Of a DNA stretch of 64,000 nucleotides, positions 12,381-59,011 are shown one piece after another. Source of the stretch: Polychytrium aggregatum. Its lineage: Eukaryota > Chytridiomycota > Chytridiomycetes > Polychytriales. The DNA lies in assembly GCF_025602895.1 (NCBI RefSeq), contig NW_026516236.1, forward strand, positions 186,001 through 250,000, written 5' to 3'. Below the pieces are notes generated by a model. It worked only from the letters and a program-made list of their open reading frames with translations, was not told the DNA's origin and did no database searches. The first letter of the stretch is position 1; every line of letters starts with the position of its first letter. The position numbers were made by a program, and so were the translations under genes.

Positions 12381-12461
12381 GTCAGGATGTCCGAGTGGTT
12401 AAGGAGTTGCACTCGAAATGCAATGGGCTCGCCCGCGCAGGTTCGAATCCTGCTTCTGACG
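12381..12461 (+). tRNA. tRNA-Ser(CGA)
   Basis: An 81-nt class II tRNA. The acceptor GTCAGGA pairs with TTCTGAC (one G-T pair), discriminator G. The anticodon stem TTGCA/TGCAA encloses CTCGAAA, anticodon CGA, reading serine TCG. There is a long variable arm and a normal T loop TTCGAAT. A T run (ctttt) follows, as expected for Pol III. No intron. It is identical to the copy at 29347..29427. Confidence 0.95.
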
Positions 12462-12953
12462 CTTGTCTTTTGCTCCTCGTTTTTGGCCCATATCCTGTCT
12501 CCTGTCTCCTGTCTCCTGTCTGCCCATCGCCACTGCGGTGTGCTCTGTTGTTTTCCTTCTGGATGCCATGCTCGCCGTCTCCGGTTTCTGCCGTTGAATG
12601 TCGTTGAATATCGTCTTCCAGTGTCGTCTTCCAGTGTCGTCTTGATCCATTGATGTGCATCCGCTGTCCCGATCCCCACGTCGATCGCGATCTCCATGTC
12701 GGTCTGGATCGTGCCTCGCTGTGCGCTCTGTCGTTCGGCTCTTGTCTCGCCCCCGCCGCAAGTCTCTCTCGTCCATCACAACTTCACATAGTCCCGTCGC
12801 TGCATCTTCTTGCATCCGGCCATGTCCGCGGCAAAATGCAGCAGCCATCTCCACACTGGTTGGCCGCTTTCGTTGCGAGAACCGACCCCCATCAATCGAT
12901 CCTGTGGCTCGGTGTCGGAGCAAAAAGACAATTCGAACTCCGCAAGTTCAAAG

Positions 12954-25516: not shown

Positions 25517-28500
25517 TCAGGAGGATGGGCCGATCTTCTTTGGCCTGGTCGCAGCGCCGCGCGGTTTGGCTGGTGTCGTCGTCTGTGTCTTGGATGTCGC
25601 TGCTGCCGGGGTTGTGCTGCCTCCAACGCCTGTGGAGTCAGGCCTCAGCGACGCAGGACACTTGTTGGAGTATGAAATCATCAGCCGAGTCTGGATCTGA
25701 TGGGCCTCACCCTTGGTCAGCGCAGAGAGGCGCTGGACATATTCCTCGCCCATTATGCGCTTGATGGCCTCGACCTGTGCTGGGCTGGCTGGCTGCCGTC
25801 GCCAGGACGCGTTGCGGAAGAGGTTTCGGGCTTGGGCATAGGGCATGGTGGAAAGAACCCAGGTATCAGCACCCCGGATGGCCGACTCGAGGGTATCGCT
25901 GCTCAGCAGCTCCTTGGAGGAGACGATGTACTTGGTGCGGCTGCGTGCCGAAGGCGGCAGCTTGACTCGTTTTCTAATCGAGGCAGTGTACGGGCCGCCC
26001 TCTAGGGAAGCATGCCGATCCAGCATCGAGAAGAATTAATACTCCGCCGCTGCCGATGATGCTGTAGTCGCTGTCGAGGATACTGTAGTCGCTGTCAAGG
26101 ATACTGTAGTCGCTGCGCAAACTCCCATCAGCTCAGCAGCCGCAAATACGGCCCATTCTGCACAGCGAAGCCTACCTGTCGACTGTTTGATCAAAAGCCA
26201 AGACTTGTCCATTAAGGGCAGGGCGCAATCCGATAGACCCACCCGCATCCAAGCAAAGCGAGAGATGGTTTGAAGGACGGCCGCATGGCTCTGCGCCTCG
26301 TCCCGACTGAACAGCATCGGTATTCCTCGCAGGCGAATCTCGATTGGCCGAATTTGTGGCACTTGCTCTGGTTCGGCGAGGAGTGGTGGACTGCTTGCTC
26401 TGTCGCCGCCACTGGGAAGCATGTCCAACTGGGCTGTCCGTGGGCCGGCACAGTCACCACCCAAGTCATTATCTGCGTCTGTAGCTCAGGCAATATCCGG
26501 TTTGACAAAGCACATGCGTCGCATCCCAAGTGAGATAGTGTCCCGAGTGAGTGACAAGTCAGAGCCACGATCAACGCACACTCTCCTCGACAGTGGCAGT
26601 CATGAGCGAGACTCGTATCCCAGACATCAATCCAGACAATGGAGGCCCTGTGGAGGGTGTCAATCGCACCTTTGCTCTCAGAGATTTGCTCGGGAGGCAG
26701 TCCGAACAAAGTCGGAGCAATCCGGAGCCTTGGACCGCCGTCGAGGGTGTCCAAAAAGTCAAATACGAGGCAGTCGTGCTTGTCTGTGTCCGGAGCGAGT
26801 CGTTAGCCGCCTCAGATCCACGTTGGTTGACATATCGAGGCCGGAGCGGCGCTGGACTCACCCGGGTGGAGACGCATGCCTCGCCCCAGCATTTGTATCA
26901 GTAGCGGCGTCGATCGCGTTGGGCGTGCCATCATGATGCAGTCGATGTTGGGGATATCGGTGCCCTCGCTTACGATACCTTGACGGTGAAGCATCGTCGT
27001 TAGTACCTCCCAACATCCGTTAGGCCTCACGAAGCGACAAGTGCCTACCGCAATTAATGAGCACGGGAGTCTGGCCATCTCGGAAGCGCTTGAGTGCTCC
27101 AGACCGCTCGGCCGACTTCATCTTCCCATGGACAGTGGCAACATCGACATTGTGCCTCCTGAACTCGCTGGCCAGGTCTTCGATGTGTTGGATGTCCGCC
27201 GCGAATACCAGCGTCGATTTGCGTCCCGTTGCCTCTGAAGATCCGATTTCCCCAAAGTAAATTAGTCGAGTTGACAAAGCCATCCGACCTCCGATATGCG
27301 CGTTGCATCGTGGGCTTACTGCGCCAGACTTACGCGACAGATATATTTGGACAATGACGTTGTTACGCTCGGGTTTGTTGATGGCCTTGGAAAGCGCATC
27401 GACCGCATAGTCACCAGCCACCACGGGAACCTCGTCGATCCGGACGCGGGTTTCGACCGCTATGGGATTGACTCTGCAAAGCCTGGGGAATCATTTTCGG
27501 GTCGAGATCGAGTAGGGGTCGTGGTGGTGCAGGAGGCGGCCGGGTCGTTCAAAAGGCGTCAGTAACGAAGTGCTCTCTGCACTAAGTGCTTGCTGCAATG
27601 TCACCGAAAGTGGGCAGGTCGGATGGTTCTCTGCACGGCCAACAAACACCATTGACAGATCCATTGGCATCAGTCCGAGGCCATGTAGCGGCGATCGGCG
27701 GCGCTGCAGGTATCCTCACCATCCCTCATCGATCATGCTGTCGAGGTCCTTGTGGTAGACAACCTTGTCGAATATGCCCCCCAGCGAAACCCCATCGTGG
27801 CGCCTCAGGGTTGCCGAACAGCCCCAGACATAGATGTGCGAGCCTGGGCAGTCGGCGCCAAAGTGCGCCAGGATGCGGCGATATACCGGGGCAGCAGCAT
27901 GATGAGCCTGTAACCAGGAGCACGGCGAGATGAAGTTGTGAGACTGTTGTTCACAGCTGTAGCGATACAACCCCACGAACAAGCAAGTCCAGCTGGTTGC
28001 TCTGCAAACATCACAGACCTCATCTGGACAGAGAGGGGGGCGGCATCAGTGCCAACCGGGCCGTCGTCGTCGTTAGAAGGATTGGCATGAAAGTCGGGGC
28101 CAGCATCGACCCCATGCGACGAAGCAACAGCCTCTCACCGATGATGATGCACTTGAAATCCTCGGGGTTATACTGCAGGAGTCTCGGGCTCCCATCGCGG
28201 CCGATCGTCTGCACACTTTTGACGAAGGCTGTCAGTCTCGCACACCAGGCCAAAGCTGGGGTGCCCTATCGTCATGCTGCAGACAGTGCTTCGCACCTGC
28301 TCAAGACAATGTCGCTATTGGGGTCGTATTTCTGTACTCGTTGATCCAGACAGATGCGCTGCCGATGGTCAGCAGTCGGGACAAAGAGAGTTCGCCGGAT
28401 CAGCTGGGATAAGAGTCGGGATGGAAGTTTCGATATCCAGATAGCGCTGTGTCGCGGCGGATGTGCATGCGATACATACAGCATCGGGGAACTGCCGCTT

Positions 28501-28986
28501 TATGCTGTGGTATGCTTGATCGAGCAGCTCTTCACGGTGCGCCAGGATCAATGTCTTGTTGGCACCGGGCTTGGGAGGGTCGATGTGCTCGATCAGTGCG
28601 GTGAAGATACGGGTCTTGCCGCTGCCGACAGGAAGCGACACGGCCTGCCGCCTGATGCCCTTCTGGAACTCGCTGATGCAGGTGAGGATGCACTCTTTCT
28701 GGTATGGACGGAGGGAGGAATGCAAAGCGGTCTTGAGGAGGACGGATTCTGGAGATAGCTCGGATGGGCGGCTATCGTCGGAGAAAGATGCTCTGGGAAG
28801 AGACTGCTGGTTGTTTGGTCGATTCTGCACCTCGGTGGCTTGGGCAGCTGAAGAACGGAATTGTCGCAGGTGGTCGAGGAGGTGGGCTCCGCTGCCAATG
28901 CCGACAATGCTGTTGGCCAAATGAGTTGAGAGGGGCCGATGGATAGAATGCGGGAGGGCCACGCATATACTCGTGGCCATGGACAT
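25517..28986 (-). CDS. irc3: Irc3-type mitochondrial DExH-box helicase
   Basis: Resembles yeast Irc3, a superfamily 2 helicase that maintains mitochondrial DNA. Motifs in order on the minus strand: RPYQKECI (Q-motif region), [11 protein letters not shown] (Walker A), [13 protein letters not shown] (Ia), [15 protein letters not shown] (II), [12 protein letters not shown] (III), [15 protein letters not shown] (IV), [17 protein letters not shown] (V) and [14 protein letters not shown] (VI). The C-terminal region ([11 protein letters not shown]) has the SW-R-pATP-type element of the family. The Asp-Glu of motif II comes from a 5-nt exon at 28019..28023. ATG codons at 28986 and 28980 are both possible; the sequence after them ([17 protein letters not shown]) could be a mitochondrial targeting peptide. 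The first ATG lies inside the right inverted-repeat arm. The joins between 26036 and 27700 were only partly solved. Confidence 0.85.
28019..28023 (-). other. 5-nt microexon coding Asp-Glu of helicase motif II
   Basis: The preceding exon ends KCIII plus G before gtgaga. The following exon starts GCT CAT CAT (AHH) after tggttacag. The only way to make DEAHH is the pentamer ATGAG, flanked by ctctgtccag and gtctgtga. G+AT gives Asp and GAG gives Glu, with phase kept. Confidence 0.75.
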
Positions 28987-29691
28987 GGCCGGATGCAAGA
29001 AGATGCAGCGACGGGACTATGTGAAGTTGTGATGGACGAGAGAGACTTGCGGTGGGGGCGAGACAAGAGCCGAACGACAGAGCGCACAGCGAGGCACGAT
29101 CCAGACCGACATGGAGATCGCGATCGACGTGGGGATCGGGACAGCGGATGCACATCAATGGATCAAGACGACACTGGAAGACGACACTGGAAGACGATAT
29201 TCAACGACATTCAACGGCAGAAACCGGAGACGGCGAGCATGGCATCCAGAAGGAAAACAACAGAGCACACCGCAGTGGCGATGGGCAGACAGGAGACAGG
29301 AGACAGGAGACAGGATATGGGCCAAAAACGAGGAGCAAAAGACAAGCGTCAGAAGCAGGATTCGAACCTGCGCGGGCGAGCCCATTGCATTTCGAGTGCA
29401 ACTCCTTAACCACTCGGACATCCTGACTTGCGGCAGTTTACTCCATCACAGTACATGACGCCGCACGGACTGTCGATGATGGCACCGAGCGAGTCGGCAC
29501 TTGCATTTGTTTCCCCACCACAGGATACCCCGCCGCACTGACTGTCGTGCGATGTGGTGCTGTTCTGTGCATCTCATTTGCATCTCATTTGCATCTCATG
29601 TGCATCTCATTTGCATCTCATTTGCATCTCATGCATCCTCCGTTCCACGTGTCCAATTACCCCATCTCCCAGCCTGCCACCGAGTGAATCG
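28981..29691. repeat. Right arm of long inverted repeat
   Basis: 711 bp, the reverse complement of 12139..12827 apart from a few substitutions and two extra 11-bp units (29571..29636). Its inner edge falls six bases inside the first possible start codon region of the helicase gene. Confidence 0.9.
29347..29427 (-). tRNA. tRNA-Ser(CGA), second copy
   Basis: Identical in sequence to the tRNA at 12381..12461, in opposite orientation inside the right inverted-repeat arm. Acceptor, anticodon and T arms are intact and a Pol III T run follows, so both copies look functional. Confidence 0.95.
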
Positions 29692-48772: not shown

Positions 48773-50832
48773 ATGTCAGTGAGCGTCGCTCAGCAGCAGC
48801 AGCAGCAATTTCCACCCCCGGAGGCCGTCCAGAAGGCGTCAAAGGCATGTCGACACATTCTTCTCACGCTCTCGGCCTTTGCCGCTCAAGACGACGCCTC
48901 GCGTCTCGCTCTGGAGACGAAGGTCCTGGTCCAGACCCTTGGGCCCTATCTGAATGCCGCACTCCTCGTTGAGCTCCAAGCCGTGTTGGGCCGGCTCGCC
49001 GGTCCAGGAGACGACGGCCACGAAGCCGAGCCGCATCACTGTCGCGAAGCCCTCGAGCTGGTCGAGAGCCTCCTCGATGAGATGGTGGCCAGCACCGGCG
49101 CTCTACCGGAAGCAGTACCAACAGCAACGCCAGTAGCAACATGGCCTGCGGCTCGCAGTTCCAAACAAGCCATTGAACCAACCCACGTTCTGACAGCAGG
49201 ATGCCAGGACGAACACGCAGACAGACCCATGTCCATCGAGATCCATCGCCCAGAGGAGCACCCTCACTTCTCTCGCTGTTCGGGGCAAAGTAGCTGTTTT
49301 AGGTGCACCTCGGCACGAAATGACGACGACACGACGCGCAGCGAGGCAGGTGAGCTCCAAAAACCGATGCAATCTGAGGGCTTTGCTTCGGGAGCAATAG
49401 CCTGGACAGGATACTGTCCGTTGCTGCTTTCGTTGCAGCGCGACACATCGAGCCATCTTCCGTGCTTGACGGCGTGTTGCAGTCCGTCGCGCTAACTACT
49501 CTTGTATCAGTCCCACCTGCGATGCAGCAGGTCAATGCTGGAGTGACCGTCTTTCTTTCACATCTCGGGCTCACCTACAGACTCGTGAATGTCGATCTAC
49601 CTGGCACTGAGGAGGCGATCAAGTCGGAGCTTTGGCGGCTGTTCCGACAGAGGTTTGCCCATGCCCCGCACTTTGACCCATGCGCATGCATCCTCCAAGT
49701 CTTTGATCCGCAGCATGCCGAGTTTTACATCCCGGACGACTGGACCAGAGCACTCGAGTATCCAGCGACTCTCAAGTTCCAGGTTCTAGCACCTCCACAC
49801 GATAGAGGCCCGAATGGAGCAATCAGCAGCGATTCATTGGATTGCAAGAACTCGCCCTCGACCCTTCACCAACGCATCCCACGGCACATCGCAAATGCGT
49901 CTTCGCATGAGCCTGGTTCCTCAGAGACCGAGGCACTAATTGCAAAACTCGCTGATCTAGTCCGCATCGAGCTTGCCAAGCGATCGCCAGAAGGACCTGC
50001 CGCCAGCCAAACAGCCGACGGAGCGATTGCGCCAGCAGCACCAGCATCAGCACCAGCACCAGCACCAGCAGCAACATCAGTAACAGCGGCGACCGAGTTG
50101 TCTCAGAGCAATCCACATCCCAACAGGATCCGTGTCGAACGCAGCCAGACCGAGCTCAAAGCCCTCCAGAGTGAAATTGCCGATCGGCTCGGAATGCTGA
50201 AGCAGCAGATTCTGCGACTCACAGCGGGCGGTGCGATCGATTTCGGCCCCATCCGAGATCTCCAGCAAATCCTCGAAGATCTCGGAAGCGATACGAGCGA
50301 GTACCGCCAGCTGCTGGATCGCTGCCGCAGCGAATGGAAGCGCATCTGGGAGTATGAGCTGAGCGAGATTGTGCGCGAGCAGAACCTGATCAAGTCTCAA
50401 GATCAGATGCTCCAGCAGTGGATCGGCGAGCAAGTAACCCTCGAAGGAGAGATCCACAGTGCCGTCTCGAGGATGCGGGCCGATCCACCAAAGTGCGCAA
50501 CGTCAGTGGCCCTGCCCATTGTCACCTGCGATCAGGTCAAGAGCGCACAGGCCGAGATGCTACAGGAGCTATCGCTGCGGGTCAGTCCCATGGACTCGGC
50601 CCGCAGAGTCGAGGCAGCTCAAAGATTCAGCGACCACCGAAGCATCCAGAGACTGTGCCGCATCGAGTACGAGAACGAGTTCAAGATGGAACTACGATCG
50701 GTGGTTCGGGAAAAGTGTACAAGATGGATGCGGGGTCTTCAGAGTGTGGATGAAGACCGGCAGCGCAAAGACCTGAGCTTGCTCAAGGAAACGCAGCTAT
50801 CCGTCACCGGATCCGACGCATCGAGATGCTGA
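48773..50832 (+). CDS. bud6: Bud6/Aip3-like actin and polarity protein
   Basis: Bud6/Aip3 helps formins nucleate actin cables and marks sites of polarised growth. Model: 48773..49349 and 49511..50832, phase 1, 632 residues. The N-terminal part (KACRHILLTLSAFAAQDD) is helical. The second exon opens with a beta-grasp-like module typical of the Aip3 family: VFLSHLGLTYRLVNVDLPGT, KSELWRLFRQRF, FDPQHAEFYIPDDW. After an Ala/Pro-rich linker comes a long helical region (ELKALQSEIADRLGMLKQQI; RCRSEWKRIWEYELSEIVRE), matching the Aip3 core. The start chosen is the ATG just after the heptamer repeat. I am fairly sure of the family, less of orthology. Confidence 0.75.
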
Positions 50833-57896: not shown

Positions 57897-59011
57897 TCAG
57901 CAATAGCCAGCAATAGCCAGCAATAGCCAGCAATAGCCAGCAATGGTCAGCAACGAAGCAGAATACAGTTGCAGATGCATCCAAGCCAAACAGCAGCGAC
58001 GGACGATGGGCGATGGACGATCCAGGACGGAGCGGGCACAGCGAGCGATCATCGGGCTGCTGCCGGCTCGGTTGGTGTGAAGGCAGTCGCAAGGGCGAGA
58101 GGTGTGATGTGATGATCAACCGATGGACCACACAGCGAGTTATTGACGAAGCAGGGTCGTCAACGAAGCAACCGAGACTGCAGCGATGCCATTGTACCAT
58201 CATCCAGGATCCAGGATCCAGGACCCAGCATTCTCTGTTCCACACCTAGCATTCTCCACTCCACACCTAGCATTCTCCACTCCACACCCAGCATCCAGAT
58301 CCAGCATTCCCCATGCCACTGATGCGACGCCATCGCCGTCGCTCGCTGGTCAAGCACCACCCCACTCCAGATCGGCATCATTATTTCCAATCGACCAGAG
58401 ATGGACGGATTGATTGCCTGGTGCCAAGAGACAAACGGCCGAGATCCGACATTGACGGATATCGATGGACATTGGAATGCCGCGACATGGATGGACATTA
58501 ATGCAGCCACTCGATCCAATCACACCGCACCGATTGAACACCACCCACGTCTGAACAGAGAACACCGGTCCAGCAGACACCTGCAGTTCGCAGACAGCAC
58601 CAGTCCAGTCCATCCATCCGATACCGAACGGCCACCAGCCAAACAGACATCAATTGATATCAATTAGACAGCAAGGGAGTTGAACCCTCGGCTGTCCGGA
58701 ATGGGTTGTGTGTCCTCACTGACCGTCCTCCCTTGCGGAAGTCCTGTCCTGTGCAGGGTCATCACGGGTTTCCAAAAAGTGGGCCACTGCTCTTGGTGAC
58801 TCTCCGACACGGGATTTTTTAGTAAAAGGCGAAAAAATCGTGCGAATGCGAGAAAGTCGAGCAGGATGCCGGTGCAAAGACTTGCCGCCCGCCCGCCCTT
58901 TTATACCGCTGTGCCGCCACCCGTTCCGTGTCCCCCGTTCCGTGTCCGATCACCGCGTGGCTTGTGCGCAGCATCGGTGGCTGGCGCCGTCGATTGGCTG
59001 GCCACGTGTCG

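Follow-up and report, generated by a model that had tools for sequence, protein, structure and literature searches.

The pentamer ATGAG at 28023-28019 on the minus strand (CTCAT at 28019-28023 on the plus strand) of the window, as we call the whole 64,000-nucleotide stretch analysed here from the chytrid fungus Polychytrium aggregatum (order Polychytriales, phylum Chytridiomycota), is very probably a 5-nt microexon that is spliced constitutively in the gene of an Irc3-like SF2 DNA helicase, and it is predicted to lie between two ordinary short introns. It is preceded by AG and followed by GT, finishes an Asp codon (G|AT) and adds a Glu codon (GAG), and the restored product segment CIIIDEAHH is Walker B, or motif II. 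A sequence-only reading of this DNA had proposed a 5-nt in-phase microexon supplying the Asp-Glu of the DEAH motif (Walker B) of an Irc3-type helicase, and our model agrees with it; the splice-site letters given there without a strand are those of the minus strand, on which ATGAG was confirmed. In the public model of this conserved enzyme one catalytic residue is exchanged for another, apparently as a consequence of the missed five-base exon. Its relatives may share the fault, and exons as small as this may persist for long and often go unnoticed.

Gene structure and predicted product

The gene, on the minus strand, spans 28986 to 25517 and has 11 exons, counting the microexon as exon 4, and 10 introns. 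Exons 1-9 were modelled here, while the end of exon 9 and the whole of exons 10 and 11 were deduced by mapping P0001, the deposited P. aggregatum protein. Exon 1 (28480..28986, minus strand, as are all the following) runs from the start ATG to RQFPDA, carries Walker A (VGSGKT) and motif Ia, and is identical to residues 1-169 of P0001. It is followed by exon 2 (28297..28358, 62 nt) and exon 3 (28139..28215, 77 nt). Intron 3 (28024..28138, 115 nt) runs from GTGAGA to TGTCCAG with a pyrimidine-rich tract, and after the microexon (28019..28023) intron 4 (27908..28018, 111 nt) runs from GTCTGT to GTTACAG. Exon 5 (27720..27907) starts with the AHH codons and carries motif III, GCSAT. Downstream are exon 6 (27334..27482), exon 7 (27049..27234), exon 8 (26862..26978), which contains motifs V and VI, exon 9 (26670..26783), exon 10 (26176..26478) and exon 11 with the stop codon (25517..26001). 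Introns 3 and 4 are both GT-AG, and their lengths fall inside the span of the other six modelled introns, which measure 70-237 nt. All 10 donors of the gene are GTNNG, that of intron 4 included; this donor, GTCTGT, is the sole one with a pyrimidine at +3 and may be weak on that account.

The product contains the Pfam domains PF04851 (ResIII, 2.1e-28), PF00271 (Helicase_C, 6.8e-19) and PF00270 (DEAD, 5.9e-11). With ResIII/DEAD and Helicase_C domains both present, the predicted protein is an Irc3-like SF2 helicase. Fungal proteins named IRC3 are about 50% identical to it, and, of the relatives with a solved structure, the DNA repair helicase RadD (6jde) is the best match by sequence; its DE aligns with the DE of the microexon. 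The N-terminal 37 residues contain no D or E, one R and four H, and the label mitochondrial, putative here, draws on this D/E-free N-terminus together with the names of relatives. Irc3 is described as a mitochondrial branch-migration helicase, and in yeast Irc3 unwinding is blocked by a Walker A mutation (PMC4872236). Both Irc3 of that report and the chytrid protein are SF2 helicases and several matches of the latter are named IRC3, a likeness by name and family only.

A tRNA-Ser(CGA) gene is found just upstream of the helicase gene (29346-29427, minus strand), and another tRNA-Ser(CGA) of equal Rfam score is at 12381-12462 (plus strand). Elsewhere in the window there is a U5 spliceosomal RNA gene at 58747-58864 (minus strand; 70 bits versus a gathering score of 40), and a short piece at 50022-50094 is matched, more weakly, at 83 other places in the genome, many of them in arrays with steps of about 30 bases.

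Uniqueness of the microexon model

The boundaries of exons 3 and 5 are well fixed by homology. Exon 3, whose 3' end reads ...ATCATCATCG, terminates at 28139 with ATC ATC ATC G|GTGAGA and leaves in phase 1, and exon 5, whose 5' start reads GCTCATCAT, begins with GCT CAT CAT from 27907, after ...GGTTACAG|, and enters in phase 0; therefore 3n+2 bases are needed between them. On the minus strand ATGAG has ...CCTCTCTGTCCAG upstream and GTCTGTGATG downstream, with TGTCCAG as its immediate 5' border and GTCTGT as its 3' border, and the predicted spliced mRNA across both junctions is ...ATCATCATCGATGAGGCTCATCAT..., which is translated as IIIDEAHH. In the sequence model ATGAG is an internal coding exon with canonical AG/GT splice sites, and its 5 nt are well below the 15 nt taken as the upper limit for a microexon. 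Within the 231-nt interval there are two pentamers of the form AG-5nt-GT, AGGCT and ATGAG, and DE comes from ATGAG alone. The arrangement AG-ATGAR-GT appeared in 0.12% of 20,000 dinucleotide shuffles of this interval, and in 0.11% when 40 nt at either end were excluded.

Splice models were enumerated from the start of exon 3 to the end of exon 5, with GT or GC donors, AG acceptors and the other exons held fixed. The first enumeration admitted introns of at least 40 nt; where a model had two introns, its first donor had to lie 40-130 nt from the exon 3 start, and the piece between the introns could not exceed 120 nt. It gave 5372 models (one without intron, 500 with one intron and 4871 with two), corresponding to 4044 distinct proteins. 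Of these, 1337 reached at least 430 residues ahead of any stop, and their scores came from a profile built on the 165 motif-keeping homologues then collected, P0001 excluded; a repeat with exon 9 ending 4 nt earlier left 1334 such products. The second enumeration, with introns of at least 20 nt and wider limits, comprised 29968 unscored models, motifs being counted on products of at least 430 residues.

The microexon model came top of the 1337 products, with 625.3 bits. The runner-up, at 615.8 bits (9.5 below), was a 14-nt variant (28010-28023, minus strand) using another donor 9 nt downstream, which gives DEVCD-AHH. Single-intron GT-AG or GC-AG models reached at best 601.2 bits, 24 below the microexon model, and two-intron models with other small pieces were outscored as well. 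IIIDEAHH was produced by one model only, among the 5372 and likewise among the 29968. The looser set contained a second DEAHH product, which has the same ATGAG but has lost most of exon 3. The earlier statements that the flanking exons cannot encode the Asp-Glu and that only ATGAG restores DEAHH are thus true for the enumerated GT-AG and GC-AG models, every DEAHH product of at least 430 residues using ATGAG. The pentamer is required for the reading frame too, since its skipping causes a frameshift and, in the modelled product, a stop after 60 residues, as had been anticipated in part by the same reading.

The window belongs to contig C268 of a genome of 64.7 Mb in 418 contigs, and the same stretch is found on a second contig, C413, with 100% identity over the 401 bases surrounding the microexon. 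Over 3192 bases of the gene stretch C413 has three differences, none within the microexon or its introns. Colinear matches occur at two more places, about 18 kb before and about 22 kb after, with 99-100% identity at the three places tested, and C413 is probably the other, uncollapsed haplotype. The presence of the same stretch on C413 makes a one-off assembly error at the microexon unlikely. Protein and DNA searches for a cDNA-like copy elsewhere in the genome matched only the window and C413. An accidental fit in a pseudogene could be argued from the fact that neither large exon beside the motif carries DE; however, the remaining helicase motifs are present, the other eight joins are in frame and the two near-identical copies show no difference in the microexon region, so that we regard a pseudogene as extremely improbable.

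The deposited protein model

P0001 is 99% identical to the spliced model over 99% of its length and its exons are those modelled here, with two exceptions: exon 3 continues through GTGAG as far as 28134, and the microexon is lacking. As a result it reads IIIGEAHH. To obtain GE from the ends of exons 3 and 5 an intron with AG-AG, GA-CA or AG-AC termini is demanded, and no model with GT-AG or GC-AG splicing produced GEAHH in either enumeration (5372 and 29968 models), so this junction was rejected as a canonical splice.

The deposited model would be correct if such an unusual junction were really used and motif II had Gly in place of Asp. It is a public protein and may rest on transcripts. However, GEAHH is unique to P0001 among the 265 collected homologues, and under this reading the perfect AG/GT flanks of ATGAG would have to be coincidental (~0.001). 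The motif II Asp of SF2 helicases coordinates metal, and this was also counted against the Gly variant. Taken together, it is very unlikely that the deposited junction is the true one, and the public annotation has apparently missed the microexon. Non-canonical intron ends such as AG-AG are normally not proposed by ab initio predictors. GEAHH would be explained most simply by a transcript bearing ATGAG, whose five bases an aligner placed, at the cost of one mismatch, on the neighbouring GTGAG. If the model did originate in this way, it would constitute indirect RNA support for the microexon.

Splicing of the microexon and relation to known cases

Recognition across the intron is found in fungi with short introns, and each of the introns flanking ATGAG is probably recognised across itself (intron definition). 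Five bases would be too few for exon definition, and such a tiny exon would need none. Whichever intron leaves first, its removal would attach the five bases to a normal exon, at whose border they would stand when the other intron is spliced, and thus sequential removal of two short introns could account for the splicing without special factors. The product would regain the motif II, or Walker B, required for ATP hydrolysis. Skipping of the microexon, or retention of intron 3 or intron 4, would each spoil this motif, and for this reason inclusion was taken as constitutive.

Ultra-short exons are already known as a kind in plants, Fusarium and Trichoderma. Plant microexons of 1-15 nt are often misannotated, and the described set includes a 5-nt phase-1 cluster in Peptidase M1 genes and clusters of 4 nt and 8 nt in the RECQ3 helicase gene (PMC8831610). 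The chytrid exon resembles them in having a length that is not a multiple of three and in being missed by annotation, and both the 5-nt phase-1 class and the location in a helicase gene have counterparts there. It differs from the plant cases described in that source in being fungal, in belonging to an Irc3-type helicase and in carrying the catalytic D-E itself, and it is known here from sequence. Among fungi, a 1-nt exon of Fusarium CYP621A, supported by SRA reads and an alignment of 24 genes, is likewise an ultra-short exon on which both phase and a conserved motif depend (PMC12940212), whereas the present one has 5 nt and lies in motif II of a chytrid helicase. The same source mentions that in Phanerochaete a P450 motif contains an exon of 8 nt. 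Our search of the literature on microexons in chytrids or Chytridiomycota, which covered titles and the starts of abstracts and left most subscription papers outside, found no paper on the subject, and a listing of papers on microexons in DEAH helicases likewise led no further. What is new is the chytrid case, in a helicase, bearing catalytic acids and with signs of long conservation.

Motif II in homologues and other chytrids

Three homologue searches, each of which scored about 8000 candidates, contributed the best 120 of 4294, 1024 and 915 matches, respectively, and 265 proteins were collected over the three. DE[AVS]HH was present at motif II in 114 of the 120 best homologues of the first search, and DE directly before [AVCST]H was kept in 246 of the 265 collected proteins and absent in 19. 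The absences were concentrated in chytrids, with 14/35 (P0001 included) versus 5/230 in the others (Fisher p 2.6e-10, which is not a true probability because the rows are related). Chytrid status was taken from the listed names, so that the 35 of 265 include P0001 and second proteins per species or genus and nameless entries count as others; moreover, broken chytrid models were part of the alignments behind the second and third searches, so that the 14/35 may be enriched by choice. The first search alone gave 4/12 chytrid-named proteins without the motif (one of them P0001) versus 2/108 others.

As regards the other motifs, motif I was absent in 10/35 chytrid proteins versus 38/230 others (p=0.099) and motif V in 2/35 versus 11/230, and motifs Ia, Ib, III, IV and VI were not absent more often in chytrids than in the others. 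The control is a weak one, since the patterns were made by hand and fit chytrids better, motif III being absent in 77/230 and Ib in 103/230 of the others. In view of the excess at motif I, general gene-model quality may contribute to the motif losses in chytrids.

The broken models part at the same spot. Polychytrium reads IIIG-E-AHH, Homolaphlyctis IIVGTYAAALQAHH, Zopfochytrium IIIGRFNLAHH, Phlyctochytrium arcticum IIVGELIPVFFHHKLEVNAHH, Geranomyces michiganensis IIIGSEPQAHH, Entophlyctis IIIECRLMFVEQAHH, Globomyces IIIDVAHH and Quaeritorhiza IIIENLTSAFTIAHE, and in Batrachochytrium salamandrivorans IIIG is followed by TLRR. After the hydrophobic run the next residue has a codon starting with G (G, E or D) in 9/9 of these models, a count that leaves out five of the 14: P0122 (same species and join as P0121), P0125 and P0142 (which keep DE and then run on into a likely intron), P0174 (whose model begins exactly at AHH) and P0178 (which begins later). 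The sequences G-T-Y, G-R-F and G-E-L would correspond to read-through of donors G|GTACGTA, G|GTAGGTT and G|GTGAGTT, the codons being invisible in proteins.

According to the NCBI taxonomy the broken models belong to Polychytriales, Rhizophydiales, Chytridiales and Spizellomycetales. If there were only one intron, DE would be inside a large exon and hardly lost; hence the presence of the microexon with its two introns in several chytrid orders, with intron positions deduced from protein models, is likely but unproven. We lean slightly towards the stronger statement that a 5-nt phase-1 microexon at motif II predates the split of the chytrid orders and was kept in these four, and that gene models would have lost it independently many times. 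Intact DE is annotated in 21/35 chytrid proteins, for instance in Geranomyces variabilis beside the broken G. michiganensis; in such models the introns may be absent or the annotation may be correct.

The models of Spizellomyces 'palustris' and Nowakowskiella continue past DE, as IIIDEVCPRF and IIIDEVKTSG. A similar extension would arise in P. aggregatum if intron 4 were not an intron and ATGAG...TTACAG were kept, since its 111 nt are open in frame and would separate DE from AHH by 37 additional codons. However, this model is 24 bits below the microexon model, motif II would be split by the insert, and in the homologues DE so regularly stands directly before [AVCST]H that we hold retention as the normal form to be highly improbable.

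The splicing of the five bases had also been proposed to act as an on/off point, that is, physiological control would decide between inclusion, giving an active helicase, and skipping or intron retention, giving a product that is dead or degraded. The modelled forms do behave in part as such a switch would need, as the skip product is truncated, retention of intron 3 halts at a TGA lying within ATGAG itself, and retention of intron 4 sets DE and AHH apart in frame. Moreover, a fungal precedent for such a switch has been described, Trichoderma Xlr2, in which a 20-nt microexon is glucose-dependent and two isoforms are made (PMC11121469). That microexon resembles the chytrid one in being fungal, of a length not divisible by three and missing from a JGI gene model, but the chytrid microexon shows no sign of either glucose dependence or two isoforms. 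None of the modelled skip and retention forms yielded an alternative product of plausible function, and the shared break in several chytrid orders fits constitutive inclusion better than a switch. Thus, the on/off proposal is unsupported, and we consider regulation of this kind improbable.

If the microexon is confirmed in other chytrids, an exon below the size for exon definition can persist very long at an invariant active-site motif, and the locus would offer a clean test both of intron-definition splicing and of the failure of annotation pipelines. If it holds across the orders, this would be an ultra-short exon that lies inside the active-site motif of an enzyme and is itself conserved throughout the phylum. 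Further cases could be sought by a simple rule, which is to look for phase-1/phase-0 boundaries at which a conserved motif has been lost.

The models P0010, P0102 and P0147 (Lobosporangium, Dimargaris and Mortierella) also lose residues beside or before AHH. An intron near motif II may be older than the chytrids. In P0045, the homologue of Batrachochytrium dendrobatidis, motif III is GCSGT, not GCSAT.
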